Shown: positions 14,687 through 62,163 of the stretch, one piece after another
Numbering within the stretch: the first letter of the stretch is position 1
Layout of the letters: each line of letters opens with the position of its first letter
Virus record (IMG/VR): IMGVR_UViG_3300046820_000903
Location: 1 to 64,000 of that record
Length of the DNA stretch: 64,000 nucleotides
Strand: one strand, 5' to 3'
DNA from: a virus
Position numbers and translations under genes: made by a program
Notes under the pieces: model-generated
Told to the model about the DNA's origin: nothing
Databases searched by the model: none
The model's input: only the letters and a program-made list of their open reading frames with translations

Positions 14687-15147
14687 TGTGCTTCCTTGTG
14701 CGACTTAAATGTACCAAATAACATATCCCAAACAGGAATGAATAATCCGTAATTTACAGATGTATTGTGATGATGTATTAGATGCCACTTGCCGCTGGTT
14801 AGATACGGATATAGATCAAACTTGGGATTATGTTCAACAATTTCTTGTATCAGAGCGGCCCATACGTAGTAAAAAACGCTAACCCACCATTCGCCAGTAA
14901 TTAAGCTAAAAAGCAATGTAGGAACAACTTCTGTAATCCAAAGATCTAATGTACTCATCCATGTATCGTTGAATAGAAACAGATTGTTCCAGTGCCATGT
15001 TGTTTGTTTATTTGTGTTAATGTATCTGTGATGATCTGCATGTGCATTAAATGCAACGGGGAAAAAACGTAACCCAATTGAATGAATTACGCGGTGTATT
15101 ACGTATAGATATAAAGTCCAGCTTATAAAAACAAAAATGTAGTACAT
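14683..15147 (-). CDS. Fatty acid hydroxylase / sterol desaturase superfamily membrane protein
   Basis: The small 154-residue integral membrane protein has the histidine clusters of the di-iron hydroxylase family: His18xxxHis22, His36-Ala-Asp-His39-His40, and His-Leu-Ile-His-His-His near residue 125. Hydrophobic segments occupy about 1-17 and 75-105. Family members hydroxylate or desaturate lipids or carotenoids. A GATAAGTA box at 15152-15159 ends four bases before the ATG. With the desaturase at 10064, this is a second lipid oxidase in the same phage. Confidence 0.8.
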   Translation of the reverse strand: MYYIFVFISWTLYLYVIHRVIHSIGLRFFPVAFNAHADHHRYINTNKQTTWHWNNLFLFNDTWMSTLDLWITEVVPTLLFSLITGEWWVSVFYYVWAALIQEIVEHNPKFDLYPYLTSGKWHLIHHHNTSVNYGLFIPVWDMLFGTFKSHKEAQ

Positions 15148-15163
15148 ACACTACTTATCACAA

Positions 15164-20838: not shown

Positions 20839-20846
20839 GCTAAATA
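20839..20846 (+). promoter_or_regulatory. T4-type late promoter GCTAAATA, five bases before ATG
   Basis: TAAATA ends at 20846; five bases (tggtt) separate it from ATG 20852. T4 late promoters have their last A at -6, so +1 would be the A of ATG. An ATG overlaps the box at 20846, but transcription from this box would begin downstream of it. Confidence 0.6.
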
Positions 20847-20851
20847 TGGTT

Positions 20852-21550
20852 ATGAATCCACGCCAAATTTTATCAGCCGCTTTTACAGCAAACGGAGGTA
20901 TTGCTGACTTTAGACCTCAATCAAATGCACTTGTTCCATTGGTGCTACCTGCGCCAGTTGGCACTTCAAACTTTTGGGTCAAGGGTCATAGCTTTCAGCT
21001 CAGTGAACGTGTTTGGCAAAACAACAATTCTGTTAAAGTAGTTGGGTTGGTATTCCATTGGTTCCTTGCACAAGATACAGGTGTTGAAACATCTTTAGCA
21101 AATAAAATTAATCCGTTGCTTGCATCTGAAGTCTACTATTTTAGAACCACTGACATGGCATGGATGGGCACGGCAGTGACGCAACTATATCCAACTATTG
21201 GTTCATTTTTAAGAATTCCAGATCTTACACAAAATCTTACATTTTGGATTAAAAACGATACACCAGTTGCCGCCCCAGAGGTTAGTAATGTTGACCAAAG
21301 CTTTTACTGTTCAGTGAGAGCAGGCAAGCCACTACTTACTGCTCCTAGCATCATGAATTCCAACTCAGCAACTATGTCAGATCGTGTAATTGCTTCGAAG
21401 ATACCTTTGAACATCAGTTGGAGAACAGAAGGTACTAAGTTAAAGTTTGGTTCAACTGGATTAAACTTTAGAATTGAAACGTTAAACAGCAGAATAGATC
21501 AAGTTGAAGTAAAGCTCGGCAGTACAAACACAGCACTTGTTAGAATTTAA
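20852..21550 (+). CDS. Isolated plus-strand gene, probable virion protein
   Basis: From ATG 20852 the product has 232 residues; in-frame ATG 20846 and TTG 20837 lie further upstream. The sequence is Asn/Thr/Ser-rich and strongly beta-forming, with no catalytic motif, as in phage structural proteins. It is the only plus-strand gene between 12.4 kb and the end of the window and is preceded by a late box rather than a sigma-70 promoter. Its stop overlaps that of the converging gene by four bases. Confidence 0.6.
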   Translation: MNPRQILSAAFTANGGIADFRPQSNALVPLVLPAPVGTSNFWVKGHSFQLSERVWQNNNSVKVVGLVFHWFLAQDTGVETSLANKINPLLASEVYYFRTTDMAWMGTAVTQLYPTIGSFLRIPDLTQNLTFWIKNDTPVAAPEVSNVDQSFYCSVRAGKPLLTAPSIMNSNSATMSDRVIASKIPLNISWRTEGTKLKFGSTGLNFRIETLNSRIDQVEVKLGSTNTALVRI

Positions 21551-21930: not shown

Positions 21931-22210
21931 TGATTTTGCGACCTTGTTTGAGTTCAACTACACTAAAATCTGTAGTTTTAAACATTTTGTTCAAACGGTC
22001 AGACAAGTTAAATGCATGTCCGGGGTTAGAAAAACTTACCTTTTTATATTTTGGCCCTGGGTACGAAACCAAGCTATTCAGGGTACGTAAGTTAATAGGT
22101 TTGTCTTTATAGAATACGGCATATATAGCGTCAGCCGCGAGCACCTCTTCACTTTTATACGTGCGAGGGTTTGTATTTGTTAGTATTATTGTTGGCTTAG
22201 GTCTGCTCAT
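21899..22210 (-). CDS. Small basic protein, leaderless late gene
   Basis: ATG 22210 gives 103 residues; the frame also contains an upstream TTG at 22225. The protein is basic and rich in Lys, Asn, Ser and Thr, without a recognised motif. GCTAAATA at 22216-22223 ends exactly five bases before this ATG and no Shine-Dalgarno sequence is present, which favours the ATG and a leaderless late mRNA. Confidence 0.6.
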   Translation of the reverse strand: MSRPKPTIILTNTNPRTYKSEEVLAADAIYAVFYKDKPINLRTLNSLVSYPGPKYKKVSFSNPGHAFNLSDRLNKMFKTTDFSVVELKQGRKINESGTSFKDN

Positions 22211-22215
22211 GCACT

Positions 22216-22223
22216 TATTTAGC
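22216..22223 (-). promoter_or_regulatory. T4-type late promoter GCTAAATA, five bases before ATG
   Basis: The minus strand reads GCTAAATA-agtgc-ATG. Box and spacing match the plus-strand case at 20839. GCACTT and AAGTGC flank the box as a 6-bp inverted repeat. Confidence 0.6.
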
Positions 22224-23587: not shown

Positions 23588-23907
23588 GCCTGATTACGAG
23601 TTTTATTGTTTGTTGCCATTCGGCCCGCTTCGGCTATAAATGAGCCATCTGCCATCCCATCCATACCAACATTACGGCAGAGTTCGGTGAACCAACCATC
23701 AACGATTTCTTCTGGTGTAGCACCTCTAAAACCATTTTCTCTTAGGAACAGCACAAAGGCAGGATTCCATTCAAGTTCGAAATAACCTTGCTTTGGATTA
23801 TTAGGATCAACATGTGCGGCAATAACATTAACCCATGGGTCTGGATTATCCTTCATTGACTTTGCAGTTGGTTTACGTTTGAATAGATTCTTAATATAGG
23901 TTAGCAT
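23584..23907 (-). CDS. Conserved small phage protein, unknown
   Basis: The 107-residue protein starts with a basic amphipathic helix (1-15) and has an Asp-Pro-Trp-Val strand and a Phe-Glu-Leu-Glu-Trp-Asn strand. The pattern is one I associate with conserved hypothetical proteins of marine T4-like phages. An AATAAGTA box ends five bases before ATG 23907, and no Shine-Dalgarno sequence is visible. The function is unknown. Confidence 0.65.
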   Translation of the reverse strand: MLTYIKNLFKRKPTAKSMKDNPDPWVNVIAAHVDPNNPKQGYFELEWNPAFVLFLRENGFRGATPEEIVDGWFTELCRNVGMDGMADGSFIAEAGRMATNNKTRNQA

Positions 23908-23912
23908 ATGAA

Positions 23913-23920
23913 TACTTATT
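23913..23920 (-). promoter_or_regulatory. Late-type box AATAAGTA, five bases before ATG
   Basis: The minus strand reads AATAAGTA-ttcat-ATG. Six of eight positions match TATAAATA, and the five-base spacing equals that of the stronger boxes at 54072 and 55393. Confidence 0.5.
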
Positions 23921-40181: not shown

Positions 40182-40210
40182 ATTATATTTAGATTTAGGT
40201 TTAAAGTCAA
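40182..40210 (-). promoter_or_regulatory. Sigma-70-like promoter, overlapping a CTAAATA box
   Basis: The minus strand reads TTGACT, 17 bases, TATAAT. The sequence CTAAATATAAT means a late-type CTAAATA overlaps the -10, so the clamp gene may be read both early and late. The leader has AGGAG before ATG 40158. Confidence 0.82.
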
Positions 40211-47796: not shown

Positions 47797-48960
47797 TTAC
47801 TCTAAATATAAGGGATTACTCAGGCATGTCATTAGCCCTTTTTTTATTCCGCCCAACTTGATCCAGTCATTGCCAACCAAGTCTGCTAATTTTTCTAGTC
47901 CAGCTGTATATATCTGAGTATGCTTGGCATGTGCGTCCTTCAAAAACCATTCGTCTCTGGGACTCCACATCAACAGCAAATCGTGTTTGCCACTGGAATA
48001 TGTATCTGCTGACCAGTCTTCATAGACCAAACGATGGCATCCGTCATTGGTCAGATACCATGTTTTACCGTTGACAACTGCATTGCCCAGTGCATTGCCT
48101 TTTCTATTGAGCCAGCGTGAATCAAAGTCCTCTACCGGAATATTTTTAAGATATCGCATTATAACATGTCCTTGCTTGCACAGTAGATCTTTGGCATCTG
48201 GGCTCCAAAAGAAGAACTCATCATGTTCCCAGTCTCTGTTTAGGCTCTGTGTGACTGGACTAACTGAGTTATCAACAATGTCAACAAAGCGGATGGCATA
48301 ACGCCGATCCTTCTCTAGGTTAACTCTGGGCTTGTCCATGCCCCATACAAAACAAACACGCTTGCCTTGGGCAAACAGGTCCAAGTAGTCTTGATTCTTT
48401 TCTCTAATGTAGCGGCGAGCCAGTTGGTTGGGACTGAACACAGCATTTGCTTTGTATAGAAAATCAAACTTGTTATCATCCACACTAAACAGGTTGGGCT
48501 GATAGTCAATATGGTCAACTAATCTAAACTTTGTAGCAGGACTAGATTCTAGTATCTTTTCAGCCACCGGGATGGCCACACGCTTTACTTCGCTGTTGAG
48601 ATAAGTGTCCCAAGAACCATCGCCGCCAAAGTTGTGGAATGTTGCTAACTCATCTACATGTAGCCCTTGATCAATAAATGCACGAAGCATGGTATAACTG
48701 TCAGCACCACCTGACCACCATAAGACCACATAGTCATAGCGTTCTCTAATTTGTCTGGCACGAGCTTGATATAACTGTTTTAAACTTTCAGCAGGTTCCA
48801 CAGTCCAATCATACAGGCCAAATTCTTCATCATTAAAGTTCCAATGTACTGGAATAGCAGTGGCATTGCTTAACTCAATGGCTTCTACCTTGCTGTAAGT
48901 TTTGAACTTGCCAACTTGGTAAAAGCCAAACTTGTCCTTGCTTAAATGTGCGTTTAACAT
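47797..48960 (-). CDS. PP-loop ATP pyrophosphatase domain protein
   Basis: The 387-residue protein has Trp-Ser-Gly-Gly-Ala-Asp-Ser-Tyr near residues 83-90, a PP-loop after a hydrophobic strand, and Glu/Asp-rich strands after it. No glutaminase domain is present. It is the third PP-loop enzyme of the window and the second embedded in a glycan module. It may activate a carboxyl group of a sugar or peptide for amide formation. ATG 48960 follows GGAA and overlaps the previous stop. Confidence 0.7.
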   Translation of the reverse strand: MLNAHLSKDKFGFYQVGKFKTYSKVEAIELSNATAIPVHWNFNDEEFGLYDWTVEPAESLKQLYQARARQIRERYDYVVLWWSGGADSYTMLRAFIDQGLHVDELATFHNFGGDGSWDTYLNSEVKRVAIPVAEKILESSPATKFRLVDHIDYQPNLFSVDDNKFDFLYKANAVFSPNQLARRYIREKNQDYLDLFAQGKRVCFVWGMDKPRVNLEKDRRYAIRFVDIVDNSVSPVTQSLNRDWEHDEFFFWSPDAKDLLCKQGHVIMRYLKNIPVEDFDSRWLNRKGNALGNAVVNGKTWYLTNDGCHRLVYEDWSADTYSSGKHDLLLMWSPRDEWFLKDAHAKHTQIYTAGLEKLADLVGNDWIKLGGIKKGLMTCLSNPLYLE

Positions 48961-50270
48961 TATGTTCCGTATTTTTTTCTAAAATTGATTACCGACTGTA
49001 CTTTTGCTGTTTGTAAAACTCTAAAGTTAAAATCTACTATGGTTTTTATTTTTATACTTGCTTCTAATTTTTTCTCGTCTGACCAAGATGCAATTTCTTT
49101 AATCAGTTCTAACACTTTAAAGAAACGTTGGGTATCATCTGTTTCTAGATCGTAGCTTTCATCCCAAATACTATTAAATGTAACAAACCCTTGTTCGCGC
49201 ATTGCTTTTAAACTGCCACTGGTTGCAAACATAATAAATGGTTGCTTGTACGCAATAGGTTTGTAACTTTTTTCAGTCAAGTGTACAATGTTAGTAAAGA
49301 AGTTTGTTTCAGCAATAATATTAACAAAGCTGTTTTCATACAATTGTCTAGTAGAATCAAACTCGTCAAACATTAAATTCAACTTATGGTCAGGCGTGTC
49401 CAGTATTAGAGGAAGCTGTGCTTCAATGCCTGCTAGATCTTCATCTGATATAATATTCCTTGTGCTTAGTCTATTGAAGAATTGTCTGGCATGATTGGTG
49501 TATGTGCCGCCGTTGTCAATTTCCAATTTGGAAAAGCTAATGTTAAAATGTTCCAGCAAGTTGTTCTTATACAAATAAGCCAGAATGAGTACACGATGAG
49601 CCTGTGAGCCCCAGCGACGATTGAACATTAAAAACGTCTTGGACTTCTTGCCTATTGTATACTTGACTTCTTTGTTTTGTAAAATATCTTTATAGATGTA
49701 AAAGTAAAACGGAAGATATTCAAACTGTAAGCCTTCGTTGGGCTTGCTGAATCGTTGACAATAGCTGTCATAAACTTCTTGACAATTAGGACTGCATGTT
49801 AGATATATAACTTGTGACATTGGTAAACCACTGTTGCGAAAGTAGTTTTCTATCTGCATCAAGTCGCTGTCTTTTAAAATGCTTTCCAATGGACATGTTA
49901 CAAGTAGGTATGCTGTTTTATTTTTAATGCGATTAAACACATTAGCTGGCAGCTGACTCCACCCTAGCATGCCTCCTAACTTGCCTGAGCCAAAAAACTC
50001 TTCTATGCTGTGCCACCAGTAATGATTGTACTCGTACAAGAAAGTTTCATTGGGTAAGTCACATATTGGATATGTTCTGACCAGTTCAGATTTCTGAAGA
50101 AACTCATAACAGTTGGATGTTTGAAGCTCAAATTGAAGCTCATTGCCTACTCGCTTGAAATGTGTTCGGCCCGAAGCTCTGGCCATATCATACACATTGG
50201 GCGGACTATTATTGGGTATTGGATTGATTGGTCCAATCCAATCAAATACAAAATTAACCTTTTTGCTCAT
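48960..50270 (-). CDS. Glycosyltransferase-like protein, paralogue of the gene at 54086
   Basis: From ATG 50270 (overlapping the FkbM gene by 17 bases) the product has 436 residues. The C-terminal third has Thr-Glu-Lys-Ser-Tyr-Lys-Pro, then Gln-Pro-Phe-Ile-Met-Phe and a Gly-Ser-Leu-Lys segment, the pattern of a nucleotide-sugar binding end similar to GT10-type enzymes. Asn-Arg-Arg-Trp near 240 matches Asn-Arg-Arg-Pro in the protein at 54086. A longer frame to 50333 exists but lacks a ribosome-binding site. Confidence 0.6.
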   Translation of the reverse strand: MSKKVNFVFDWIGPINPIPNNSPPNVYDMARASGRTHFKRVGNELQFELQTSNCYEFLQKSELVRTYPICDLPNETFLYEYNHYWWHSIEEFFGSGKLGGMLGWSQLPANVFNRIKNKTAYLLVTCPLESILKDSDLMQIENYFRNSGLPMSQVIYLTCSPNCQEVYDSYCQRFSKPNEGLQFEYLPFYFYIYKDILQNKEVKYTIGKKSKTFLMFNRRWGSQAHRVLILAYLYKNNLLEHFNISFSKLEIDNGGTYTNHARQFFNRLSTRNIISDEDLAGIEAQLPLILDTPDHKLNLMFDEFDSTRQLYENSFVNIIAETNFFTNIVHLTEKSYKPIAYKQPFIMFATSGSLKAMREQGFVTFNSIWDESYDLETDDTQRFFKVLELIKEIASWSDEKKLEASIKIKTIVDFNFRVLQTAKVQSVINFRKKYGT

Positions 50271-50931
50271 AGGTGTTGTAAAAAATAGTATTGATAGCGT
50301 CAGCATAAATTTCTTTATAGCCATGTAAGACAAGAAGATTTCTAATTAATTTATGACTGCGTTGTATATCAGGGTAGTTGTCGTAGCCCGAATGTATATC
50401 TGATAATTCTGCAATAATCATTTTAGGTCTAAAGTCCTCTAAGCTAAACGATTCAAAGACTTCTTGCTCATAACCTTCAACATCAACAACTAGTAAGTCA
50501 AAGTCTTTGCTAATATTATGTTTATGCAAAATAGTATCTAACTTAGTGGTCGGTACAATTAGTTCTGACTCGTTGTTAAAGTGTTTATGTTCAAAAATAT
50601 TCTTGTGGGCGGCATGCATAGTATCGCTCAGTGTACTCAGTCCCCCAGCAACATGAATCTTTTTTTCGTTGTTACTATTTCCAATAGCACATTGTTCAAA
50701 TTGAACATTGTTGTTTTGATGTCGTTGCTTGCACTGGTCCATATGATCGGGTACAGGTTCTATGTAAATCCCAGTCCAACCTAGATCTGCAAGCCCGCTA
50801 GTATTAGAAAAAGATTCGCCATTAAATGCACCAACTTCAACAAAACAGCCGTTAGTTTTATTAAAATACTGTAGATAAATTTCTTTAAGATTGGTTATTT
50901 GGCAAGTAGGAGATATTCTAATATTATTCAT
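50254..50931 (-). CDS. FkbM-family methyltransferase
   Basis: The 225-residue protein has Val-Glu-Val-Gly-Ala-Phe-Asn-Gly near 32-39, the SAM loop of the FkbM family, and Val-Val-Asp-Val-Glu-Gly-Tyr-Glu near 150, the family's second signature. FkbM enzymes O-methylate sugars or polyketides. ATG 50931 has AGGA upstream. A second FkbM gene follows upstream at 50965. Confidence 0.85.
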   Translation of the reverse strand: MNNIRISPTCQITNLKEIYLQYFNKTNGCFVEVGAFNGESFSNTSGLADLGWTGIYIEPVPDHMDQCKQRHQNNNVQFEQCAIGNSNNEKKIHVAGGLSTLSDTMHAAHKNIFEHKHFNNESELIVPTTKLDTILHKHNISKDFDLLVVDVEGYEQEVFESFSLEDFRPKMIIAELSDIHSGYDNYPDIQRSHKLIRNLLVLHGYKEIYADAINTIFYNTYEQKG

Positions 50932-50964
50932 CGTTATTCAAGTCCTTTAACCAGTTATTTAATA

Positions 50965-51609
50965 CTATTGAACTATCAGCTCATAGTCTGTCACACTTAC
51001 AGTATTTAAAACGTATAGAGCATCACAGTGATCTTTGAATCTTTCAAGGTAACCAAGAGATTCCATCAGTGCTCTGAAGCCTTCATAAGTTGTTCCAGTC
51101 TTGTACATATTAAACTCACTGATTTCTGCCCACACTATGCTAGGCCGTGCCGCACCAATAGAACTGAATACTTGATGTTCAGCACCCTGTACGTCAATGT
51201 GAACAAAGTCTGGACTAGCATTATGCACAGAACAAAAGGTGTCTAAGGTAATACTGGGAACTGTATAGCCTTCGCCCCATTGCCAACGTTCATTTAATAA
51301 GTTGGGTCCTGGTTCGCATACACTACCAGACCATGGCCATTCTTGTCCGTCTAGCACAGCACTGGGATAAAAGGTTAAATTCCCATTGGAATTTGATACT
51401 GCCATATGGAAGTAGTTTATGCCATGCTCAACTGCTGTTTTTTTGTTTTGTGCTTCCCATGCACTGGCGCATTCAAATGCATAAAATGTCGCGGCAGGAA
51501 ATTCGGCTTTGATTCGTCTGGTGTCATTCAAGTCTGCGGCACCTATGTCAAATATTACTGCGTTGGGCCTTAGGTTGGTGGCCAGCCATGTTAAATTAAG
51601 ATTACTCAT
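50965..51609 (-). CDS. FkbM-family methyltransferase
   Basis: The 214-residue protein has Ile-Phe-Asp-Ile-Gly-Ala-Ala near 19-25 and His-Ile-Asp-Val-Gln-Gly-Ala-Glu near 140, matching FkbM motifs. Its start overlaps the epimerase gene by eight bases. With the gene at 50254 it would give the glycan two methylation steps; the two proteins are only distantly similar. Confidence 0.85.
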   Translation of the reverse strand: MSNLNLTWLATNLRPNAVIFDIGAADLNDTRRIKAEFPAATFYAFECASAWEAQNKKTAVEHGINYFHMAVSNSNGNLTFYPSAVLDGQEWPWSGSVCEPGPNLLNERWQWGEGYTVPSITLDTFCSVHNASPDFVHIDVQGAEHQVFSSIGAARPSIVWAEISEFNMYKTGTTYEGFRALMESLGYLERFKDHCDALYVLNTVSVTDYELIVQ

Positions 51610-52561
51610 TGATTTGTCCTTGTATCCAGTCGTATGTTTTATTCAACCCATACTCTAAGTTCTCACCAGGTGCCCAGCCTATTGTGTCTCGAATAAGTTT
51701 GTTGTGACTGTTGCGCCCCATAACTCCCGTTGGCCCATCTACATTTCTAATAGACACATTCTTGTATGCCAACTTGGCAATCAATAGAGCTAAATCATTG
51801 ATGCTGATCATACGCTCGCTACCCAAGTTTAAAGGAAACTCGCAGTCGCTGGCCATGATGCGATGTATGCCTTCTATACACTCATCAATGTACAAGAAGC
51901 TACGAGTTTGATTGCCTGGCCCCCATATCTCTACTGTGTCGCTTTCTGTGCATTGTGCTACCTTGCGACACAAGGCCGCCGGCGCTTTTTCTTTGCCGTT
52001 ATTCCAAGAACCCCAAGGACCAAAAATATTATGAAAGCGGGCAATTCTTGCTCTGATGCCATAATTGCGAGCAAAACTCATGTACAGACGCTCACTGAAT
52101 AACTTCTCCCATCCATATTCGCTGTCTGGGTCAGCAGGATACGCACTTTCTTCGCTCAGTAACGGATTGGCTGGATCCAGTTGGTTATGGCTGGGATACA
52201 TGCAGGCGCTACTACTGTAGAACACACGAGTAACACCCTTCTTGGTCATTTCATGTACAATATTCAAATTGATCATTGCTGAGTTATGTACAATGTCAGC
52301 GTCATGTTCACCAGTGAAGATATAACCTGCGCCGCCCATGTCCGCGGCCAGTTGATATATTTCGTAAATGTCTTCTGTTATCAATTGCTGTACATTGGTT
52401 TGCACACGAAGATCCATAATATGGAATTCATCTGCATCTGTAGCACTGAACTCTGGATGCTTTAGGTCAGCACCAATTACATAGTGACCTAGTCGTTTTA
52501 AATCAGTCACCAAGTGACTTCCAATGAAGCCACCGGCTCCGCATACTAATACTTTTTTCAT
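51602..52561 (-). CDS. GDP-mannose 3,5-epimerase-like SDR
   Basis: The 319-residue extended SDR has Gly-Ala-Gly-Gly-Phe-Ile-Gly at 8-14, Ala-Ala-Asp-Met-Gly-Gly near 72-77, Ser-Ser-Ser-Ala-Cys-Met-Tyr-Pro near 116-123 and Tyr-Gly-Trp-Glu-Lys near 149. A Glu-Lys-Ala-Pro-Ala-Ala-Leu-Cys block follows, all as in GDP-mannose 3,5-epimerase (GME). GME converts GDP-mannose to GDP-L-galactose or GDP-gulose. The GDP-L-fucose synthase family is the alternative. Confidence 0.82.
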   Translation of the reverse strand: MKKVLVCGAGGFIGSHLVTDLKRLGHYVIGADLKHPEFSATDADEFHIMDLRVQTNVQQLITEDIYEIYQLAADMGGAGYIFTGEHDADIVHNSAMINLNIVHEMTKKGVTRVFYSSSACMYPSHNQLDPANPLLSEESAYPADPDSEYGWEKLFSERLYMSFARNYGIRARIARFHNIFGPWGSWNNGKEKAPAALCRKVAQCTESDTVEIWGPGNQTRSFLYIDECIEGIHRIMASDCEFPLNLGSERMISINDLALLIAKLAYKNVSIRNVDGPTGVMGRNSHNKLIRDTIGWAPGENLEYGLNKTYDWIQGQINE

Positions 52562-54066
52562 TCTGATGGTTCTATAATAGTTGTTGAAGGCTGATTGTAG
52601 TTGCCTGTTTTGGCTATTTCTTTAGCCAATTTACTTACCTCATACTCTCTTTGACACCTGTCAATGAAGGTAACCATTTCAGGGAACACTTCCTTGAAGT
52701 TGGTACCATTGCGCTTGTCATGCTCTTGTATGTACAAATAAAAATCATGCCGGGCAACAACGTTTTCTCGTTTGTTTGGATCCTCAGCCTTGATAACGTT
52801 CAGTAGTCTTGCCAAGTTATCTACTTCATGCTGATAAAAGCCATCCTGATAGTCCACGTATTCAAATTGGCCCACATTTCCTGTCATCCAGTTCACATGC
52901 TTTTCCAATGTTTCTATCAGGCCTGGGCCTGCAATCAATGCACTTAAATGCCTGGGATGACGCAGGTATGGGAAGTCAAGTGTGACGCCACGAAGGCCAC
53001 TGACCTTATGTTCGGGTGTTGGTGATCTACGTATTGCAAGAATATCTTTTAAGAAATTTCTAAATTGTGGAATACTCAATATATTGAATGTACACATGAT
53101 TGTCACATCCAACTCTGGATAGCGTAGAGCCAAGTTCCATAAGTTGTAGTACCACTTGTTATAGTCCAGGCCTACACGAACATATTCGGCTTGCTTGCCC
53201 CATGTATCACAAGACGTAAAGATCTTTAAATTTCTAACCTTGCCTTCACGTTTAATTTGTTGACATTTCTCAAAGAACTTGTCAATGATGTCTTGGTCAA
53301 CACCCAGGTTAGTATTAATGGCCAGTTCTAAGTCAGGATTAGGATTTTCAATGATCCAGTCTAGTGTGCGGAATGTTTCTTTGCTTAGTAAGGGTTCGCC
53401 TCCAGTAATACGAAATACCTTTAATTCAGGATATAGTGTAGGCCACCACTTCCACCATGCGTCGATATAAGGGTTGACGTCCTTATTTGGAATAGGCATG
53501 CGGTTTGCGCTTTCCAACCAGGTAATATCTTGTGTGACAGATTGACTGAGTTTAATAGCACCATGGCGCTTGGCAGACTGCATTAGTGTACTGCTGATCT
53601 CTGGACTGCAATAACCACATCCAAAGTTACATACATTACTAAAACTCACTTCCACGTAGGCTGGAACAACATCTGCATCCCAGGGCAGTTTAGAACTGGA
53701 TTCTAAGAATGGTTCTCCCCAGACTGTATCAGCACTTTTCTTTGTACGATCCGAAACGTATGTGCCATCATTACCTGGAGCATCTTCTACTCGCCAGCAG
53801 TAGTCGCACTCTTTGGGACGTTGACCTTCCAGCATTAGTTTACGAGAGTGCTTCTTGTGCCAGGTATTGTGCAAGGCACTGGGATTGACTACAATTTCCT
53901 CTAAGGGAATTTTATGTGGACTGGGATGATGACACGAGTGTGTTTGCCCAGTGGCCAAATGAATGGTTACTTGTTGCCATTTGGCCACACAATAAGTGGG
54001 GCTGACCTTGTCCAATTCTTTATGAATACGGATCAGTCTGTCGTTGTATTGTTCGGTAATTGCCAT
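52558..54066 (-). CDS. Radical SAM protein (twitch/SPASM-like)
   Basis: ATG 54066 is chosen (502 residues) because the late box at 54072 ends five bases upstream. Cys146-Asn-Phe-Gly-Cys150-Gly-Tyr-Cys153 is the radical SAM [4Fe-4S] motif; Thr-Gly-Gly-Glu-Pro follows about 75 residues later. Extra cysteines upstream (Cys45, Cys87, Cys90) could bind an auxiliary cluster. Such phage proteins are of unknown substrate; peptide or sugar modification is likely. It overlaps the GME gene by four bases. Confidence 0.82.
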   Translation of the reverse strand: MAITEQYNDRLIRIHKELDKVSPTYCVAKWQQVTIHLATGQTHSCHHPSPHKIPLEEIVVNPSALHNTWHKKHSRKLMLEGQRPKECDYCWRVEDAPGNDGTYVSDRTKKSADTVWGEPFLESSSKLPWDADVVPAYVEVSFSNVCNFGCGYCSPEISSTLMQSAKRHGAIKLSQSVTQDITWLESANRMPIPNKDVNPYIDAWWKWWPTLYPELKVFRITGGEPLLSKETFRTLDWIIENPNPDLELAINTNLGVDQDIIDKFFEKCQQIKREGKVRNLKIFTSCDTWGKQAEYVRVGLDYNKWYYNLWNLALRYPELDVTIMCTFNILSIPQFRNFLKDILAIRRSPTPEHKVSGLRGVTLDFPYLRHPRHLSALIAGPGLIETLEKHVNWMTGNVGQFEYVDYQDGFYQHEVDNLARLLNVIKAEDPNKRENVVARHDFYLYIQEHDKRNGTNFKEVFPEMVTFIDRCQREYEVSKLAKEIAKTGNYNQPSTTIIEPSE

Positions 54067-54071
54067 AATGT

Positions 54072-54079
54072 TATTTAGT
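54072..54079 (-). promoter_or_regulatory. T4-type late promoter ACTAAATA, five bases before ATG
   Basis: The minus strand reads ACTAAATA-acatt-ATG (54066). +1 would fall on the A of the start codon. No Shine-Dalgarno sequence is present, and the box lies in the 19-base gap after the preceding stop at 54086. Confidence 0.7.
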
Positions 54080-54085
54080 ATGTAG

Positions 54086-55387
54086 TTAATCCCATAAGGT
54101 TTCAATTGCTTCTACAACTTGAGTTGAGATTAGTTGATCCATAAATGCCTTGTTGGTCAGCAGATGTCTATTGTGCTGTATTGTTGGTTGGCACTGGAGT
54201 AATAGTGCGGCAAAGTCTGCTTCACTTAGTGCAATGATACGCTTTAATGTACGAGTCAATTCAATTCCACGTTCTACAGGATCAGTTATGGCGTCATATG
54301 ATTCATCTATATACGGGCCAAAGGTTTTAAATCCATACTCACGTAGCTGTTGTAAGAATCCCGGAGCACCTGCCAACAAGAATATTTGTCCGTGTAGCAT
54401 GGGTTTAAAAATCTTTTCTGTGGGGAATATGGCATTGGTAAAGAAAAGTGTTTCAGTAACAAGATTTACAGGGTATTCATCGTATAGTGTGTTATTTAAA
54501 TCCAGTGCGTAGTTGATGTCAAAGCGATCTGTGTCTGCTATCAGCGGAAGTTTATTATACACTTGATTAAAACTGTTGTCAAGATTGTCAATGTAACCAT
54601 TGCAACGATCTTTAAGTAGTTGCCATTGATAAGGCAAGTCAAAGTCTTTGCCTTCCCAATTGATATCAGGTTCCGTAAAATGCTTGGGCATACTGACAGC
54701 ACCATGTTCTACAAGACCAAAGTGTTCCAGTAGCGTAACAAAGAATATGCGGTGCGGATACGGGCGCCTATTTAAACTCATAAAACGACGAGTACCAGGT
54801 TTCCATTTGGCCATTGGGATACCTAGTTCTGGCTTGTCCCTGTAGCGTTGATTAAAGTTAATCCAGTTGGCAAAGAATCCATACCAAGCACACTTCATTA
54901 ACACTGGCATCTTGTTTCTGCGGCACCATTGTAGATACACAGATTCTACGTTGCAAGTACTGCTGACATACAGCACACGATCTGCTAAGTTGTATTGTGC
55001 TATCCAATTGGTCAAGTCTGGGAATACTTCTTCCGTAAAGCCCTCTTCTGAGTAGTCAATTATAATGCGACAGTTGGCGTCATGCAATGCCAGTAGTCTG
55101 TTGGGATTGGAAGCAAACCACGAGTCAATCAGGGCCAGCTTCTGCTGATTCCATCCTCCGTGTAGACCAATGATTACTACACCACGTTCTGTGGCTTTAT
55201 ATTCATTAAATGTTTTAAATTCATTTTGGCTTTTAAAGTAATTGAAAATGATGTAGTCTAGTAGCGGATCAATTGTAAAGTTCTTAGAGCCTTCTTCGGG
55301 TATGTACTGTTTCAAGTAACGGTTCCATAAGTTCTCATCTGTAAAGTCTGGGGCAATGTAATCGCCATACCACGTGATAGTTGTCAT
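54086..55387 (-). CDS. Glycosyltransferase-like protein, leaderless late gene
   Basis: From ATG 55387 the protein has 433 residues. The C-terminal part has Pro-Thr-Glu-Lys-Ile-Phe-Lys-Pro, then Gln-Ile-Phe-Leu-Leu-Ala-Gly, resembling the donor-binding end of GT10-like enzymes and shared with the gene at 48960. The late box TATAAGTA ends five bases upstream of this ATG; a longer frame to 55405 lies across the box. Substrates are unknown. Confidence 0.62.
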   Translation of the reverse strand: MTTITWYGDYIAPDFTDENLWNRYLKQYIPEEGSKNFTIDPLLDYIIFNYFKSQNEFKTFNEYKATERGVVIIGLHGGWNQQKLALIDSWFASNPNRLLALHDANCRIIIDYSEEGFTEEVFPDLTNWIAQYNLADRVLYVSSTCNVESVYLQWCRRNKMPVLMKCAWYGFFANWINFNQRYRDKPELGIPMAKWKPGTRRFMSLNRRPYPHRIFFVTLLEHFGLVEHGAVSMPKHFTEPDINWEGKDFDLPYQWQLLKDRCNGYIDNLDNSFNQVYNKLPLIADTDRFDINYALDLNNTLYDEYPVNLVTETLFFTNAIFPTEKIFKPMLHGQIFLLAGAPGFLQQLREYGFKTFGPYIDESYDAITDPVERGIELTRTLKRIIALSEADFAALLLQCQPTIQHNRHLLTNKAFMDQLISTQVVEAIETLWD

Positions 55388-55392
55388 GCTGA

Positions 55393-55400
55393 TACTTATA
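55393..55400 (-). promoter_or_regulatory. T4-type late promoter TATAAGTA, five bases before ATG
   Basis: The minus strand reads TATAAGTA-tcagc-ATG (55387), seven of eight matches to TATAAATA. It follows directly after the endolysin terminator (55405-55451), the logical place for a new transcription unit. Confidence 0.72.
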
Positions 55401-55404
55401 GTCA

Positions 55405-55451
55405 AAGAAAAACCCCAACGTGCCAGGATGATCAGTCCGCAGAGGTTGGGG
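55405..55451 (-). terminator. Intrinsic terminator after the endolysin gene
   Basis: On the minus strand CCCCAAC (55451-55445) pairs with GTTGGGG (55419-55413) across a 25-base loop, followed by TTTTTCTTT. The long loop makes it weaker than the one at 17298, but position between endolysin and a late promoter supports it. Confidence 0.6.
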
Positions 55452-55461
55452 CCGTGTTAAC

Positions 55462-56097
55462 TTATTTGCTGTCAGTGTGAACTGATCGTAATACTTCTAG
55501 TATATGATGAAAGTGTGCAGTACGATCAGCTAAGCCAATTGTGCCACCGTTGATCTTTTTAGTGACTGTTGTTACATCTTCCTTGTCAGCCCATGTATTC
55601 AACTTGCGAGTATCCCAGAACCAACCTGCACTTAGTACAGCCACTGGGTTCTTGGCAACTTGATCTGGGTCTGCTACTAAGTCTAAGCCTAGTGCTTTAC
55701 CACATGATTTGTAGTTGTCTTTACCTGTCAATTGAATTACACCGCGCCCGCGAAACTTGTAGCCTTCGCCTGATGCCTCATTGCCATTGCCCATACGGTC
55801 GCAATAGGCTCTGTTTGCAATCTTTTCTGGCTTACGTGCGTATTCGTCTGCAACACCTGCAAACTTCTTAGGCCAAAAAGCCAACAATGCTTTGGCTTGA
55901 TAGTTTAAGTTTTCTTCTACTGCATTAAAGTTACCACTTTCGTGGGCAGTTTGTGCAATAAACATGGCCTGTCTTTCGGGCGTATTGATTTCAAAGTGTT
56001 CAAACGTTTCGTTTAGTCCTTCTAAGAACATAGACAAACGTTCTGACTTTGCCTGGGGCAAACATGCTTTTAACACATCCAAAGTTAATTCTGACAT
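55462..56097 (-). CDS. GH19 chitinase-like endolysin
   Basis: The 211-residue protein has Ala-His-Glu-Ser near 51-54 (catalytic Glu), Tyr-Lys-Phe-Arg-Gly-Arg-Gly-Val-Ile-Gln-Leu-Thr-Gly near 113-125 and Asn-Gly-Gly near 183, all typical of glycoside hydrolase family 19 lysozymes that cut the peptidoglycan glycan chain. There is no signal peptide, so a holin would be required. ATG 56097 has AAGGAG upstream. Confidence 0.92.
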   Translation of the reverse strand: MSELTLDVLKACLPQAKSERLSMFLEGLNETFEHFEINTPERQAMFIAQTAHESGNFNAVEENLNYQAKALLAFWPKKFAGVADEYARKPEKIANRAYCDRMGNGNEASGEGYKFRGRGVIQLTGKDNYKSCGKALGLDLVADPDQVAKNPVAVLSAGWFWDTRKLNTWADKEDVTTVTKKINGGTIGLADRTAHFHHILEVLRSVHTDSK

Positions 56098-56107
56098 AAA
56101 TGTCTCC

Positions 56108-57415
56108 TTATTGTATGTGCTTATTTAACAAATCAGAGGTTCCAGGTAGCGTTTTACGCCAGTCTGTGCCACGTGTAGTGTCTAAAAAGTCCATTAATTC
56201 TACGTAACGCTTAACTGCTAGTATGTTTTCAAACTTACTGTCAAAGTGATCAATTAACCATTTGTGAATAGTTCTACCTACAGGTGTGTCCCGTGTAGCG
56301 TATAACTCTGCTAATTCTTCCTTAGCTGAACGTGGTAAACTCATAACGCTGTGCATAGCAGGAGCATCAACAAACTTAACTTGGAATGGTACGCCTTGGC
56401 TGTGGACCCAATCTTCTGTTTCAAACATTGTATGTGTAGTGCTCATTTGTGTACAGCTTGTTAGTCTATGTAACTTAACAACGCCTTCTTTTTCGTACTC
56501 TTTAACTCGCTTAACGTTGCGTTGGAATGTGTCCCACGAACTTGTACGAATTAACTCAAAAGGTTCGTAAGCCGCATCAATGCTGCCGGCCAATTCAACA
56601 TGCTTGAAGTGACTCCAACGCTGTGCTAATTTGTCGTTAATAACTGACAAGTTAGTATCGTAGTCTAAGTATACTTCTTTAGCACGACCTGACGCAATAA
56701 TACGATCTAGCATTTCGTCGTGTGCAGGAACAATCATTGGTTCCCCGCCTGTGATGTAGATATGTTCTAGTGTAGGTAGTAGTTCATCAAACTTAGACCA
56801 CCATATGTCAGTTTCCCACCAACGTACTTCTTTTGGATTAAACAGCTTGCCGTGTTCGTTGCGTTCTAGTTTAACTCTAGGATGACCAAAGCCCCAAGGC
56901 ACTTCTAAATTATTATTGTTAAATCCAACCCAGTCTTCATACCATTGGTTTGAGTAGCTGGGTCCACAGTGAACACACTTTTGGTTACATAAGTTTCCAA
57001 AGCGTATGTCTAGTGTTGTTGGATTCCATTTGACATAGCCATTTTCGTCCATGTCTGCATTCATATAAGTGGCAGGACTTACTATGTTTGTGCTTGGATT
57101 ACGGCGCTCCATGCTTTGTCTACGACTAGCATTAATGTTCTTTGGATCGCCACCTGTTGCGCTTTCACGCTCACTACAGCATGAGCACAAGTCATGCCAC
57201 CCGCCTTGTGTTTTTACATCATTAATGCGAACTGACCTATGCCACTTACCATTGAGCCCTTGATTAGGCGTGTGTGTCATAATGTTCATTAACTTGCCGT
57301 TCTCATCAAGAGCCATGCCCTCGTTCATTGTTCGACTGTTAGTTAATGCACATATCCTATAATCGCCAAGAGGGGTTATCATCAACCCCTGCCACGGCAG
57401 TCTACAAAAAGCCAT
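56108..57415 (-). CDS. Radical SAM protein with auxiliary-cluster cysteines
   Basis: The 435-residue protein has Cys143-Asn-Gln-Lys-Cys147-Val-His-Cys150, the radical SAM motif, and Thr-Gly-Gly-Glu-Pro near 215-220. N-terminal Cys4, Cys22, Cys77, Cys79 and Cys80 could hold an auxiliary iron-sulphur cluster. It shares the overall plan of the gene at 52558 but is clearly divergent. It lies between endolysin and the giant internal-protein candidates. The substrate is unknown. Confidence 0.8.
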   Translation of the reverse strand: MAFCRLPWQGLMITPLGDYRICALTNSRTMNEGMALDENGKLMNIMTHTPNQGLNGKWHRSVRINDVKTQGGWHDLCSCCSERESATGGDPKNINASRRQSMERRNPSTNIVSPATYMNADMDENGYVKWNPTTLDIRFGNLCNQKCVHCGPSYSNQWYEDWVGFNNNNLEVPWGFGHPRVKLERNEHGKLFNPKEVRWWETDIWWSKFDELLPTLEHIYITGGEPMIVPAHDEMLDRIIASGRAKEVYLDYDTNLSVINDKLAQRWSHFKHVELAGSIDAAYEPFELIRTSSWDTFQRNVKRVKEYEKEGVVKLHRLTSCTQMSTTHTMFETEDWVHSQGVPFQVKFVDAPAMHSVMSLPRSAKEELAELYATRDTPVGRTIHKWLIDHFDSKFENILAVKRYVELMDFLDTTRGTDWRKTLPGTSDLLNKHIQ

Positions 57416-57418
57416 TGT

Positions 57419-60049
57419 TTACTTTCGGGCTAAAAAGCCCTGAGAGTTACGCTTGTATCCTTCTGGGATTAGCTTTACTTGTTTATCCAACATACAGAAG
57501 TATTCGTTTTCCTTTAATTGTGCAGATGCGTTTACAAGTGCTTGATCAAAGTTTTCATTCTTTTGTTTGTTGTGAATAGTCCACATTGTGGCATACGCAC
57601 GTTCTGGATTGTCTTTATACTGCTTTAGTAATTTCTTTTCTAAGTCTTGATCAAAGCCAGGAGGTGCGCTTTCTTTAACTTTTTTGTTGTCCTTCTTTTC
57701 AGGACGCTTGCCACCAGTTTCTTTTTCTAGACGTTGTAGTAATTCTTCATCACTGCCGCCACCCAGCTTGTCAAATGCTTTTTTAGCGCCTGCTTTGATA
57801 GTGTCAATAATACCTTCATTTACAGCAGGAGCCATTGACCTACGGCTTTCAGCCACTTGTTTGATTACAGCTTTAGCGGCTTGTGCTTGTTCTGGAGGTA
57901 ACGTAGCAATTTTAGACTGTGTATATTGTTCTACTTTGTCATCGCCGCCTAGTTTCTCAGAGGCCATGTCCCATAGTTTTTCTACACCCTTCATGCCTAA
58001 CTTTGCCGCACTATAAGCGCCATAAGCGGCCATTGGGATACCAAGTAATGGGCCTAAGATACCAACAATAGCTGGAGCACCTGCTGCCGCAACAACACCT
58101 AATCCAAGACCGCCGGCAAACTTAGCCAATGCAGGAGCGTCTTCTTCTACACCACGTTCGCCAGGAACGCTGCCACGAAAGTTCTTTTGCTTGTCTAGTA
58201 CAGCTCGCATCTTGGTCATAATACGATCAAATGCACGAGCATCTGTTAAAGCACGTAAGAACTCTTCTTGACGGCCAGCTTTCATAAAAGACTTATAACG
58301 TCCGCCAACAAAGCGAGCTTCTGGATATTCTAATGTAATTGGCTCACCACCAACCATGATTTCAGCATCTTGCCCTTGTTCAACGGCTTTTAAAATGCTT
58401 AGTATGTTCTTACGGCCTTGTTCCGATTCCATATTTGCTTCCTTAATTTTTGTTACGTTTTCAACCTTAGGATCTATGCCTTGTTCTTTTTGGCTTAGCA
58501 AATAGTCCCAAACACTTGTTGTCATCATTTCTGCTTTGGCAATTTTTTCTTGCGCCCATTCTGGCAAGTTATCGTTGTCGCCAATTGTGTCCATTAGGCC
58601 GTTGACCGCTCGAGCCATGGTACGCAGATTGCTTTTGGCCATACCTGCTTCGTCATCGTATTCAGGATTACTGGCTTCAGTCATACTTTCACCCATGCCA
58701 GCTAGATTCTGTTCTACTTGTTTAACCCATCCTGACACATCACTGCTACCGATTTCTTCTACATCGCCTACAAAGTCAGCAACTTCATCCACTGCCGCTC
58801 CTACCTTTTCTGGGCCGTGTTTGGCCAATAGGTCTGTGCGTTGCATTAGAATACGACGAATAATGGCCTGTGCTACTGGTGAGTCTTCATCACCAGGATT
58901 GTCCATCATGCCTTCCGCCACACCTTGTTCTAAGCTTTCGACAATTACGCCTAAGCCTTTATTACCTGTGCCTTCTTTATTTGGACCAAGAATTTGAGTG
59001 ACTCTGACTTTTTTACCGTCATGGGGACCACCGTTTACTGTAATTATATTACCTACTTGTCTATTAGGCTTAAGGTTAAGTTTAATCTCTTGCGGTGCAG
59101 AATTTTGTGGTTGTGCTGATTGTTGCGGAGGCTGTTCTTGCTTTTGTGCAGGTTTGCTACCCTTCTTCCACTCGTATACCTCGTCATTCAATGAAGCTCT
59201 ATATGCTAATACAAATTGTTTTTCTGACCCCGACCTGTAAACAAAGTTGTCAATTTTAGATATTTTAACTGCTTCTTTGGTTGCATTGTCAATTGCTTGT
59301 TTTGCATTATAGCAGTCAGTTAATTCACAATACTTTGTAACCAAATCATACACATTAGTTGCCATGTACTCCATTGGAGAAATACTATCTCCGGTAGAAA
59401 TTTCTATGTCGGCGGACCTAAGTCTAATTTTTAATCCGCCAGTGGCATCTGTTAGCGCCTTACCAGCATAATTAGCCCAGTAACCTGGCCCTTTAGCTTG
59501 TGCCAATGTTGGTAAACCTGCGCCAGCTACAGCGGCAGCTCCGGCACCCAAGCCTTTTAAGAATCCTCTACGGTCGATTTCTTCTAAACTGCCTTCCGCC
59601 ACACCTTCAGCAGGCTTGTCTTTCCAAGGCTTCCACATACCGTGCTTGTGATTATCTACAATGTATAGTGTATGTGTGACAGAGCCGTCTTCATTCTTAG
59701 ATTTTTCTACATCAACAACTTTTTTAGCACCCCATTCGTTCTTGTCAAACATGTATTCTTCATGGTCAGCAGTTGCTTCGTCTTGTGCCTGGATAACGTA
59801 TAACTTGTTATACTCTTTACCGTTAGGAGCAGATCCTTCTTGGTCAACATACTTTACAGCACGTTTCTGTGTGAATGCTTTGTGTTGAGCTTGACGTTGT
59901 TGACTAATAGCATCTTCGTCATCTGCGGCCTGTTGAGCAGGGCTAGGACGTGGCTCGCTGGGAACTCGAGCCTTAGGTTTAGCATTTAGCGCCGCATAAT
60001 AATCGACGTCGCTGTCAAAGTTGCGTGGATCTACTTCGTTGATTTTCAT
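57419..60049 (-). CDS. Giant multidomain internal-virion-protein candidate with buried Tat-type signal
   Basis: The 876-residue acidic protein is built of short domains separated by sites such as Val-Ala-Glu-Gly (150-153 and 377-380), Met-Thr-Glu-Ala (456-459) and Ile-Lys-Glu-Ala (535-538), which resemble T4 prohead protease sites (hydrophobic-x-Glu|Ala/Gly). Directly after the first site comes Asp159-Arg-Arg-Gly-Phe-Leu-Lys165, a hydrophobic core and Ala-Gln-Ala185: a complete twin-arginine signal peptide. Another hydrophobic region lies near 650-700. Processing and export are inferences. Confidence 0.65.
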   Translation of the reverse strand: MKINEVDPRNFDSDVDYYAALNAKPKARVPSEPRPSPAQQAADDEDAISQQRQAQHKAFTQKRAVKYVDQEGSAPNGKEYNKLYVIQAQDEATADHEEYMFDKNEWGAKKVVDVEKSKNEDGSVTHTLYIVDNHKHGMWKPWKDKPAEGVAEGSLEEIDRRGFLKGLGAGAAAVAGAGLPTLAQAKGPGYWANYAGKALTDATGGLKIRLRSADIEISTGDSISPMEYMATNVYDLVTKYCELTDCYNAKQAIDNATKEAVKISKIDNFVYRSGSEKQFVLAYRASLNDEVYEWKKGSKPAQKQEQPPQQSAQPQNSAPQEIKLNLKPNRQVGNIITVNGGPHDGKKVRVTQILGPNKEGTGNKGLGVIVESLEQGVAEGMMDNPGDEDSPVAQAIIRRILMQRTDLLAKHGPEKVGAAVDEVADFVGDVEEIGSSDVSGWVKQVEQNLAGMGESMTEASNPEYDDEAGMAKSNLRTMARAVNGLMDTIGDNDNLPEWAQEKIAKAEMMTTSVWDYLLSQKEQGIDPKVENVTKIKEANMESEQGRKNILSILKAVEQGQDAEIMVGGEPITLEYPEARFVGGRYKSFMKAGRQEEFLRALTDARAFDRIMTKMRAVLDKQKNFRGSVPGERGVEEDAPALAKFAGGLGLGVVAAAGAPAIVGILGPLLGIPMAAYGAYSAAKLGMKGVEKLWDMASEKLGGDDKVEQYTQSKIATLPPEQAQAAKAVIKQVAESRRSMAPAVNEGIIDTIKAGAKKAFDKLGGGSDEELLQRLEKETGGKRPEKKDNKKVKESAPPGFDQDLEKKLLKQYKDNPERAYATMWTIHNKQKNENFDQALVNASAQLKENEYFCMLDKQVKLIPEGYKRNSQGFLARK

Positions 60050-62163
60050 TTTCTTAATACACTTTTCATAAACTGTGTGGCCATTGCTTGCGCTTCGCTA
60101 ACTGGCTTCATGTGAGTACTTAGCCCGATACTTTCTTGGGCTGGTTGCTTACTAATATCATGGAATCCAAAGCGGTCTACCATTAGGTATGTACTGCCCA
60201 CTTTCATAATATCGCCAACGCTCATGCTGGTGTGTCCTGTGTTGCTTTGATTGATTAGATCACGTGCTTCTCCACGTGGACTCCAGTTTTCACCTTGCAT
60301 CATTGAAAACACTTTGTCTGGATTAGTTTCACGTAGTGTACCAATTTGTACATGTGTTTGTTCCAGTGTTTCTGGTGTGGGCATTTGACCCTTCTTGGTC
60401 AACCAGTTGGCACCCATCATCATGTCACGGCCTGCTTCATCGTTCCAGTACCAAACTTCTGTGCTGCCTTCTGGGTAAGCATCAGACAAGCTGGAGTATT
60501 GTGTAGCCGCAGGTCCTGCTTCTGTTTGTAATTCACGCTCGCCAAAGTAGTTTAACATTTGACGGAAGCCTTCGCCATCGTTTAGTGTTTGTTGCATTAT
60601 GGCCTTGCTTTCTGGCTTTAACTGATCAAACTTGCTTAGGATCTTGTTGGCTGTTTTAGCACTGATAGTAATGCTACTACCGTCGGCCAAGGTCATTGGC
60701 TGTGGCTTATCGTAGTCAGCTTGACGACGAATCTGCATGATAATGTTCTTGTCTGCTGATGCTTGATCAGCTGGTGTAGCTTCATCTTCTTCAGCTTCGG
60801 TTACCGGTGCCATACCGCCTACTTCACGATCTAGTTTGTCAGCAATCCATTGTACTGGATCACCTTCACGTGCTTTGGCAACACCATAAGGCATTTCACC
60901 ACTGTTTAAATAATAATCAAATAAGGCTTCGTAAAATTCTGGATTATCATCAATTTCGCCGCCAGCTTTAAATTGTTTAAATGAATCTGCAAATTGATCT
61001 AAAATACTTTCTAATTCCGGATCAACAATTAGGCCTTCATTTAAATCAATTCCTAAATCTTCAGCAAATAATTCACCAATTTCGTTGTCATCATCTGCGT
61101 CACGTTGTGCTTTATAACTTAGACGATCATAGTAGTGAAAGTGTAGATCTGTTTCTAAAGCTTGACTTAGTTCGCCGCCGGCTTTAAAGTGCTCTACAGC
61201 TTCTTCATTGTTGGCAATGATTCTGGCCAACTGTGGATCCATACGGTATTCAGCTTCTTTAACTTCGATGCCAGCTTGACGTAAAACAGCAATGTTGTCA
61301 TCGCCCAATTCTTCTTCGTCATCTAATTCCAATTGACCGTTCTTGTTAAACGTTACATTGGTTGTACCGCCTGTTTTGTCAAACTGTGGCTTAGGCGCAG
61401 AACTGGTAGCGTTGCCCATGTTGGGAGTATTGCCGCCTGCACGACTTGGAATAGTGCCTGTAGTACCAATTGTACCAAAGCCTTCGCTTACGCTTTCATT
61501 TTGTATGCCTGTTGTATGTGGGTGACGTACATAATAAGCTTGACCGCTTGCACTGATATAGTGTGGTAGTCGTTGTCCGTCACCGTCCATAAACTCTAAG
61601 TCACGTGCGCTAATGCGTGTAATACGGTTGTCCATGTCATAAAGAATTAGAAACTTGCCGTTTTGGCTCATACGTGCTTGGTCATATACCTTCATACTAC
61701 GTCCGTCGGCTGGTAAACCATATTGCTGGCGAGTATCTTGTCTAACACGATCTGTTTCTGCACGACGAATTTCATTTTGACGAGCATTATAAATTCTACG
61801 CTGTGTTTCACGTTCTGCTTCACGTTGACGAACTAGTTCTTTATAGTTAGGGCTAAAAATATCTGCCATGTGACGACCAACGCTGTATTCTGTGCCAGGA
61901 TGACGATTCTGTCCTGGCGTACCTGTATTCTGAGCATGTGCCCCGCTCATTGCAACACCAGCGGCCATTGCTGCCGGAATAATCTTTCTGGCAACATGTT
62001 GTAGGATGTCTTTACCAGCTTCGCTTAGGTCACCTTCAACAACAACAATGGTGTCAAACGGGTCTTTAAACTGCTTGACCTGCTGAAGCACAATGCCTTC
62101 ATGTAGACGACTGCTAATTTGCTTAACAACACGACCTTCACGGACTAATTGAATACGAATCAT
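60046..62163 (-). CDS. Giant multidomain internal-virion-protein candidate with buried Sec-type signal
   Basis: The 705-residue protein shows the same architecture. Near the N-terminus are Val-Arg-Glu-Gly (7-10), Val-Val-Glu-Gly (41-44) and Leu-Ser-Glu-Ala (46-49), followed by a basic and then hydrophobic stretch ending Gly-Ala-His-Ala-Gln (74-78), like a Sec signal peptide. Later sites include Val-Ser-Glu-Gly, Val-Lys-Glu-Ala and Leu-Asn-Glu-Gly. Two acidic repeats each contain Phe-Lys-Ala-Gly-Gly-Glu. Start and stop overlap neighbours by four bases or adjoin them. Confidence 0.65.
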   Translation of the reverse strand: MIRIQLVREGRVVKQISSRLHEGIVLQQVKQFKDPFDTIVVVEGDLSEAGKDILQHVARKIIPAAMAAGVAMSGAHAQNTGTPGQNRHPGTEYSVGRHMADIFSPNYKELVRQREAERETQRRIYNARQNEIRRAETDRVRQDTRQQYGLPADGRSMKVYDQARMSQNGKFLILYDMDNRITRISARDLEFMDGDGQRLPHYISASGQAYYVRHPHTTGIQNESVSEGFGTIGTTGTIPSRAGGNTPNMGNATSSAPKPQFDKTGGTTNVTFNKNGQLELDDEEELGDDNIAVLRQAGIEVKEAEYRMDPQLARIIANNEEAVEHFKAGGELSQALETDLHFHYYDRLSYKAQRDADDDNEIGELFAEDLGIDLNEGLIVDPELESILDQFADSFKQFKAGGEIDDNPEFYEALFDYYLNSGEMPYGVAKAREGDPVQWIADKLDREVGGMAPVTEAEEDEATPADQASADKNIIMQIRRQADYDKPQPMTLADGSSITISAKTANKILSKFDQLKPESKAIMQQTLNDGEGFRQMLNYFGERELQTEAGPAATQYSSLSDAYPEGSTEVWYWNDEAGRDMMMGANWLTKKGQMPTPETLEQTHVQIGTLRETNPDKVFSMMQGENWSPRGEARDLINQSNTGHTSMSVGDIMKVGSTYLMVDRFGFHDISKQPAQESIGLSTHMKPVSEAQAMATQFMKSVLRK

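Follow-up and report, generated by a model that had tools for sequence, protein, structure and literature searches.

Late-promoter-like boxes placed five bases ahead of the start codon and predicted leaderless late mRNAs in aquatic T4-like phages

Introduction

Can a T4-like phage place its late promoters so close to a gene that transcription would begin on the start codon itself? The question is raised by the 64,000-base stretch of viral DNA examined here (the window), which belongs to a virus record of 82,291 bases, IMGVR_UViG_3300046820_000903 of IMG/VR, called G000 below. In the window, boxes resembling the T4 late promoter lie immediately ahead of two genes, one for a radical SAM protein and one for a 433-amino-acid protein. 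The late box of T4 comprises 8 bases, from -13 to -6 (PMC2988020), in line with the span assumed in the initial annotation of the window. As a box of 8 bases beginning at -13 leaves five further bases, +1 would fall on the A of ATG. In this study we verified that the five-base spacing (N5) is not a product of chance in this phage and its relatives, and the boxes are very probably gp55-type late promoters that would give leaderless late mRNAs.

Sequences and scans

The DNA polymerase of G000 was closest, among named phages, to those of Sinorhizobium phage Phosso (48%), Atu_ph07 (47%) and other jumbo phages, e.g. 121Q, and G000 was therefore regarded as a jumbo T4-like phage. Relatives were taken from IMG/VR by means of the polymerase and the two flagged proteins. 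For the gene-level analysis 14 related phage records with 608 orthologous groups were used, in which genes were called with a simple longest-open-reading-frame (ORF) method. Raw spacings of TAARTA-Nd-ATG, with d up to 39, were counted without gene calling in 7 records (approx. 1 Mb), and the reversed and reverse-complement motifs served as controls. At the gene level the reversed motif ATRAAT was unfit as a control because it shares bases with the real box in a shifted frame (ATAAAT-N6), and permuted 6-mers and other spacings were therefore used instead.

Spacing between box and start codon

The initial annotation had proposed that a scan of related genomes should give a sharp peak at five bases, and such a peak was obtained. 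The raw counts were 33 for N4, 90 for N5 and 19 for N6, with 10–29 at every other spacing, and no comparable peak was detected for the reversed and reverse-complement motifs in the same 7 records. Of the ATGs at d = 5, 76% opened an ORF of 60 codons or more, compared with roughly a third at most other spacings. At gene starts, N5 was found for 77 genes in 40 orthologous groups and N4, the only secondary peak, for 32 genes in 15 groups; other spacings reached about 5 groups (for N5, 40 groups where the background gave 5.1; Poisson P 2e-22). When 6-mers were scanned by position without guidance, TAAGTA and TAAATA at spacing 5 gave the strongest signals besides the Shine-Dalgarno (SD) sequence, and none of 75 permuted 6-mers came near the N5 signal except overlapping frames of the same box.

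The genes following an N5 box differed from other genes in several respects. An SD was found in 2 of 46 groups (4%), compared with 551 of all 1205 starts (46%); among box genes with a leader it was present in 58%. The base at -1 was T or C in 35 of the 40 N5 groups (88%) and in approx. 46% of other genes (P 5e-8). By start codon, the N5 groups numbered 40 for ATG, 1 for GTG and 0 for TTG, and no N5 peak was found when GTG and TTG starts were searched. We concluded that the absence of SD, the pyrimidine at -1 and the restriction to ATG are three independent features that fit what would be expected of leaderless late mRNAs. The first 40 bases of N5 genes were also less structured (-2.2 versus -3.8 kcal/mol), a weak signal, because the genes used for comparison have less secure start codons. 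The box of this clade tolerates variation in its first two positions, and position four of TAARTA may be G; over the 10 bases preceding the box, the stretch profiled for a -35-type element, information was low. Boxes were rare at 9–14 bases from the ATG of clade genes and commoner from 15 bases on, a scarcity which may partly reflect SD sequences occupying those positions.

The two flagged sites in the window

At both sites the five-base gap was present as the initial annotation had described it, with ACATT ahead of the radical SAM gene and TCAGC ahead of the 433-amino-acid gene, and an SD was missing at both starts (Table 1). Each ORF can be extended in frame to an upstream TTG (54105 and 55405, respectively), which is a caveat on the starts; the proteins of relatives align from the ATG and not from the TTG. 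The radical SAM label holds, as the protein contains the motif CNFGCGYC (CX3CX2C, residues 146–153) and matches PHROG 14086 at E 2.9e-9, with Pfam PF04055 below the cut-off. In relatives this gene retains the box at spacings of 5, 5 or 7 bases (ACTAAATA-N5 in L009 and ACTAAATA-N7 in L010), or about 30 bases ahead with a leader.

The label "glycosyltransferase-like" given to the 433-amino-acid protein found no database support and is unproven, since searches of PHROG, Pfam and PDB were all without a match. Orthologues occur in 12 of the 14 records, and in 11 of them the box lies at N4 or N5, in the form TATAAGTA, CATAAGTA or AATAAATA. Directly before the box of the window lies an intrinsic terminator, folding at -18.3 kcal/mol, and a similar hairpin with a T run precedes the box of this gene in several relatives.

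Occurrence in other phages

An N5 peak at gene starts was seen in G000, G002, G003, G004, G007, G008, G011, G012 and G017, in the more distant contigs G027 (22), G028 (20) and G029 (12), and in the cultured Pelagibacter phage HTVC008M (11 in the gene-start scan). By raw counts, Atu_ph07, RaK2, Syn9, P-SSM2, XbC2 and S-SKS1 had no N5 excess over the reversed pattern. In HTVC008M, 12 of 18 N5 matches coincide with coding-sequence starts annotated in GenBank, among them those of gp2, gp3, gp4, gp25, a baseplate tail-tube protein, the tape measure, CsgF and an adenylate cyclase. Annotated starts likewise account for 7 of 13 matches in phage Mosig, including gp2 and gp3, and for 3 of 7 in phage Melnitz, including the cyclase; over the whole Melnitz genome N5 did not exceed the reversed pattern (7 versus 6).

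In a 144-amino-acid family all 19 of the distinct upstream sequences had the box at N5 exactly, and the five bases themselves varied. The orthologues of gp3 had N5 in 7 of 8 cases; those of gp2 were at N5 in 7, at N8 in 1 and without a box in 3; those of gp25 were at N5 in 13, at N6 in 2, leadered in 9 and without a box in 22. By position, boxes at N5 or N4 stand ahead of genes for the portal, a gp25-like baseplate wedge and virion proteins. In the polymerase tree N5 phages are found both in the jumbo clade and among the pelagimyophages, and the trait is absent from Phosso, 121Q and S-PM2; being scattered in this way, it was gained or lost more than once. A single origin was rejected, as the tree needs at least 3 changes, with the reservation that the polymerase may not follow genome history.

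Relatives of gp55, the late sigma factor, were identified in G002, G003, G011, G012 and G017 (E below 1e-86), and gp55 is annotated in HTVC008M, Mosig and Melnitz.

Alternative explanations

The genomes are AT-rich and related, and composition, or a few related sequences counted many times, might be thought to create the peak. But counting each orthologous group once still left 40 against 5, and the same gene-start scan gave no peak in T4 (0, with boxes near 28), S-PM2 (0), 121Q (0) or Phosso (2 in 400 kb), so that we give chance practically no weight. Another explanation is that TAARTA at -11 to -6 acts in translation, as an AU-rich enhancer or a degenerate SD, on an mRNA that starts further upstream. 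It does share the position of the SD (AAGGAG peaks at spacing 6 and AGGAGA at 5–6), and pairing of UAAG with the 16S ribosomal RNA 3' end is conceivable. Single changes that leave UAAG or the A-richness intact, however, were not enriched (groups at spacing 5: TAAGTG 1, TAAGTT 0, TAAAGA 1, TAACTA 0), GTG and TTG starts lacked the peak, the identical box also lies 15–40 bases upstream of SD-bearing genes, and at the 433-amino-acid gene it directly follows a terminator. A translation signal would also leave the pyrimidine at -1 unexplained, and we regard it as improbable.

Slightly less probable still are sigma-70-type promoters of the host, TATAAT followed by 6–7 bases, which would give leaderless mRNAs independently of gp55, as in Actinobacteria or Deinococcus. 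TATAAT at spacing 5 was mildly raised (9 groups versus 2.7), but the signal requires the terminal TA of TAARTA, which TATAAT does not have, and the box of HTVC008M, mostly TAAATAG, stands before head, tail and baseplate genes, as T4 late promoters do.

Proposed mechanism

We favour, with considerable confidence, the explanation that the N5 boxes are gp55-type, T4-like late promoters, with a TATA-like box at -13 to -6 from the A of the start codon. Late transcription would then start on this A, give or take one base, and ribosomes would load directly on the 5'-terminal AUG of the predicted leaderless mRNA. For the distance between box and +1 the T4 value was adopted, and an RNA start at AUG presupposes the same geometry here; the box itself was found de novo, and its distance to the putative +1 matches the T4 numbering. 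In these phages the same box also stands ahead of genes with an ordinary SD-carrying leader, so that late genes would form two translational classes.

Several observations weigh against this explanation. N4 is enriched as well, and under a rigid T4 geometry N4 transcripts would start on the T of ATG, so that the start position needs one base of slack. More distant relatives have a leader at the radical SAM gene, and the exact spacing of this gene is not conserved. In the 82-kb fragment to which the window belongs gp55 was not found. In two cases, gp3 of Melnitz and the radical SAM gene of L012, only a frame of 8–12 codons upstream of the real gene follows from the N5-ATG, possibly a 5'-terminal mini-cistron or the relic of a leaderless start. 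Finally, genes were placed in the leaderless class from their DNA sequence, and the 5' ends are predicted ones.

The proposal of leaderless late mRNAs made in the initial annotation is thus supported, within limits: the N5 peak, the missing SD, the pyrimidine at -1, the restriction to ATG, the conservation among orthologues and gp55 in relatives speak for it, but it applies to some T4-like lineages and not to T4, S-PM2, Phosso or 121Q, and the spacing at the radical SAM gene varies. A broader proposal, which we hold with some reserve but think rather likely, is that several aquatic T4-like lineages, including cultured SAR11 phages, make both SD-led and leaderless late mRNAs from one type of gp55 promoter, that a defined set of virion genes is translated by the leaderless pathway, and that the promoter-to-ATG spacing is an evolvable switch.

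A phage-encoded bS21 was considered as a partner of leaderless translation and rejected. It is present in HTVC008M, Mosig, Melnitz and G028, but Phosso, Atu_ph07 and a Vibrio phage have it too, and it was not found in most N5 phages, so that the two traits are not correlated.

Comparison with known systems

The boxes resemble T4 late promoters (gp55/gp33/gp45) in their 8-base TATA-like form, their association with late structural genes and the gp55 encoded by relatives. They differ in position, as the TATAAATA boxes of T4 are mostly approx. 23–29 bases before the ATG; the 15 raw N5 sites of T4 were discounted, because the gene-level scan placed the start of a gene at none of them. The cyanophages S-PM2 and Syn9 are T4-like too, and S-PM2 adjoins the pelagimyophages in the polymerase tree, but the former has no N5 peak and the latter no excess over the control. 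AR9, another jumbo phage, has leaders of 26–491 bases (PMC5312081). Bacterial leaderless mRNAs, as in Mycobacterium (PMC4633059), share the +1 predicted here at the A of AUG, the missing SD and a strong preference for AUG.

The cI mRNA of phage lambda made from PRM is a leaderless mRNA of a temperate phage. Leaderless mRNAs of bacteria and temperate phages use host-type promoters, whereas here the phage's own late sigma box would serve tens of lytic late genes. Thermus phages have leaderless middle and late transcripts and are thus similar in showing systematic leaderless transcription in lytic phages, but these phages and their promoters are unrelated, and their hosts are already rich in leaderless genes.

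No published description of leaderless late transcription in T4-like phages was found, in agreement with the initial annotation, which knew of none; our search was mostly without subscription papers, and absence is not proven. In pelagimyophages the prediction of late promoters reportedly failed (PMC7029224), and placement of the box at the start codon may explain this failure of a method designed for cyanophages. For Melnitz 15 late promoters were predicted, and leaderless transcription is named only in the title of a reference (PMC9004378). If the proposed mechanism is correct, aquatic phages have, as a genome-wide habit, shifted the best-studied of all phage late promoters onto the start codon. 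The N5 rule predicts base-exact 5' ends in cultured phage-host pairs of ocean bacteria and helps to place start codons correctly in these genomes. In HTVC008M the predicted late ends are the ATGs at 6280, 7562, 11972, 18943, 19456, 31132, 49760, 75559, 75830 and 142360 on the plus strand and at 18916 and 16007 on the minus strand. A further question would be by what route a lytic phage makes its virion proteins late in infection when an SD is lacking.

Other boxes and minor observations

In the complete record TAARTA-N5-ATG occurs at 8 sites, compared with 2 for the reversed pattern, and six of them open genes (20852+, 22210-, 23907-, 54066-, 55387- and 64438-, the last just outside the window). 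The other two were rejected as chance matches inside coding sequence: the site at 33894 represents codons NKYVDE of ORF 33659–34132, and that at 60111 lies inside ORF 60046–62163. Short N5 ORFs of 11–16 codons in four genomes (ATGAAATTT and similar) were rejected as leader peptides, as in the window they are these same NKYVDE codons of a longer gene. The 103-amino-acid ORFs of G002, G003, G007 and G012 are preceded by the same TAAATA-N5-ATG arrangement as their counterpart in the window, and orthologues of the 154-amino-acid ORF carry the box at N4 or N5 in all 6 of their genomes. Further leadered, SD-bearing boxes occur in the window besides the two listed.

Table 1. Positions of boxes, genes and related elements (window coordinates unless a record is named; aa, amino acids).
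Feature	Position	Strand	Remarks
Late-promoter-like box ACTAAATA	54072..54079	-	Five bases ahead of radical SAM start codon (ATG 54066-54064)
Radical SAM protein gene, 502 aa	52558..54066	-	Predicted leaderless; CX3CX2C and PHROG match
Late-promoter-like box TATAAGTA	55393..55400	-	Five bases ahead of 433-aa gene (ATG 55387-55385)
433-aa gene	54086..55387	-	Predicted leaderless; box at N5
Intrinsic terminator GGCCCCAACC...GGTTGGGGTTTTTCTTT	55404..55453	-	After upstream endolysin gene, directly before TATAAGTA box
TAAATA-N5-ATG	20841..20854	+	ORF 20852-21550 (232 aa)
TAAATA-N5-ATG	22208..22221	-	ORF 21899-22210 (103 aa)
TAAGTA-N5-ATG	23905..23918	-	ORF 23584-23907 (107 aa)
TAAGTA-N4-ATG	15145..15157	-	ORF 14683-15147 (154 aa)
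Leadered late-type box, TAAATA	56122..56127	-	Contrast case; 24 bases with AGGAG, ATG; endolysin gene 55462-56097
Leadered late-type box TCTAAATA, TAAATA	40186..40193	-	Contrast case; 27 bases with AGGAG, ATG; gene 39439-40158
Box-N5-ATG, 8-12 codon frame	Melnitz 129255-129281 (L392:29255-29281)		Just before real gene (gp3)
Box-N5-ATG, 8-12 codon frame	G002 204507 (L205:4507)	-	Just before real gene (radical SAM)
GGCATCAAC element	G002 174234, G003 137428, G006 455, G007 23216, G008 71128, G012 91924		

A conserved gene family, represented outside the window by G000 71660–74119 and by orthologous group 2, has the box at N7 with ACT right before the ATG in five genomes, an arrangement that would give a leader of about 2 bases. 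Conserved in six records is the element GGCATCAAC, behind which come TTAARTA (or GTAAGTA), four bases and an ATG whose frame stops after 1–4 codons; it may be opposite-strand coding sequence or the start of a non-coding transcript. At the polymerase gene, AAATACATAATAC directly abuts the ATG (window 42876–42890, minus strand) in most close relatives (L118-L165) and is a second conserved start-proximal motif besides the late box. The region 46400–57415 of the window contains two radical SAM genes (the flagged one and 56108–57415), an epimerase, an FkbM methyltransferase and a cytidylyltransferase-cupin protein (46400–47191), a gene set that suggests an island for the modification of surface sugars or peptides.
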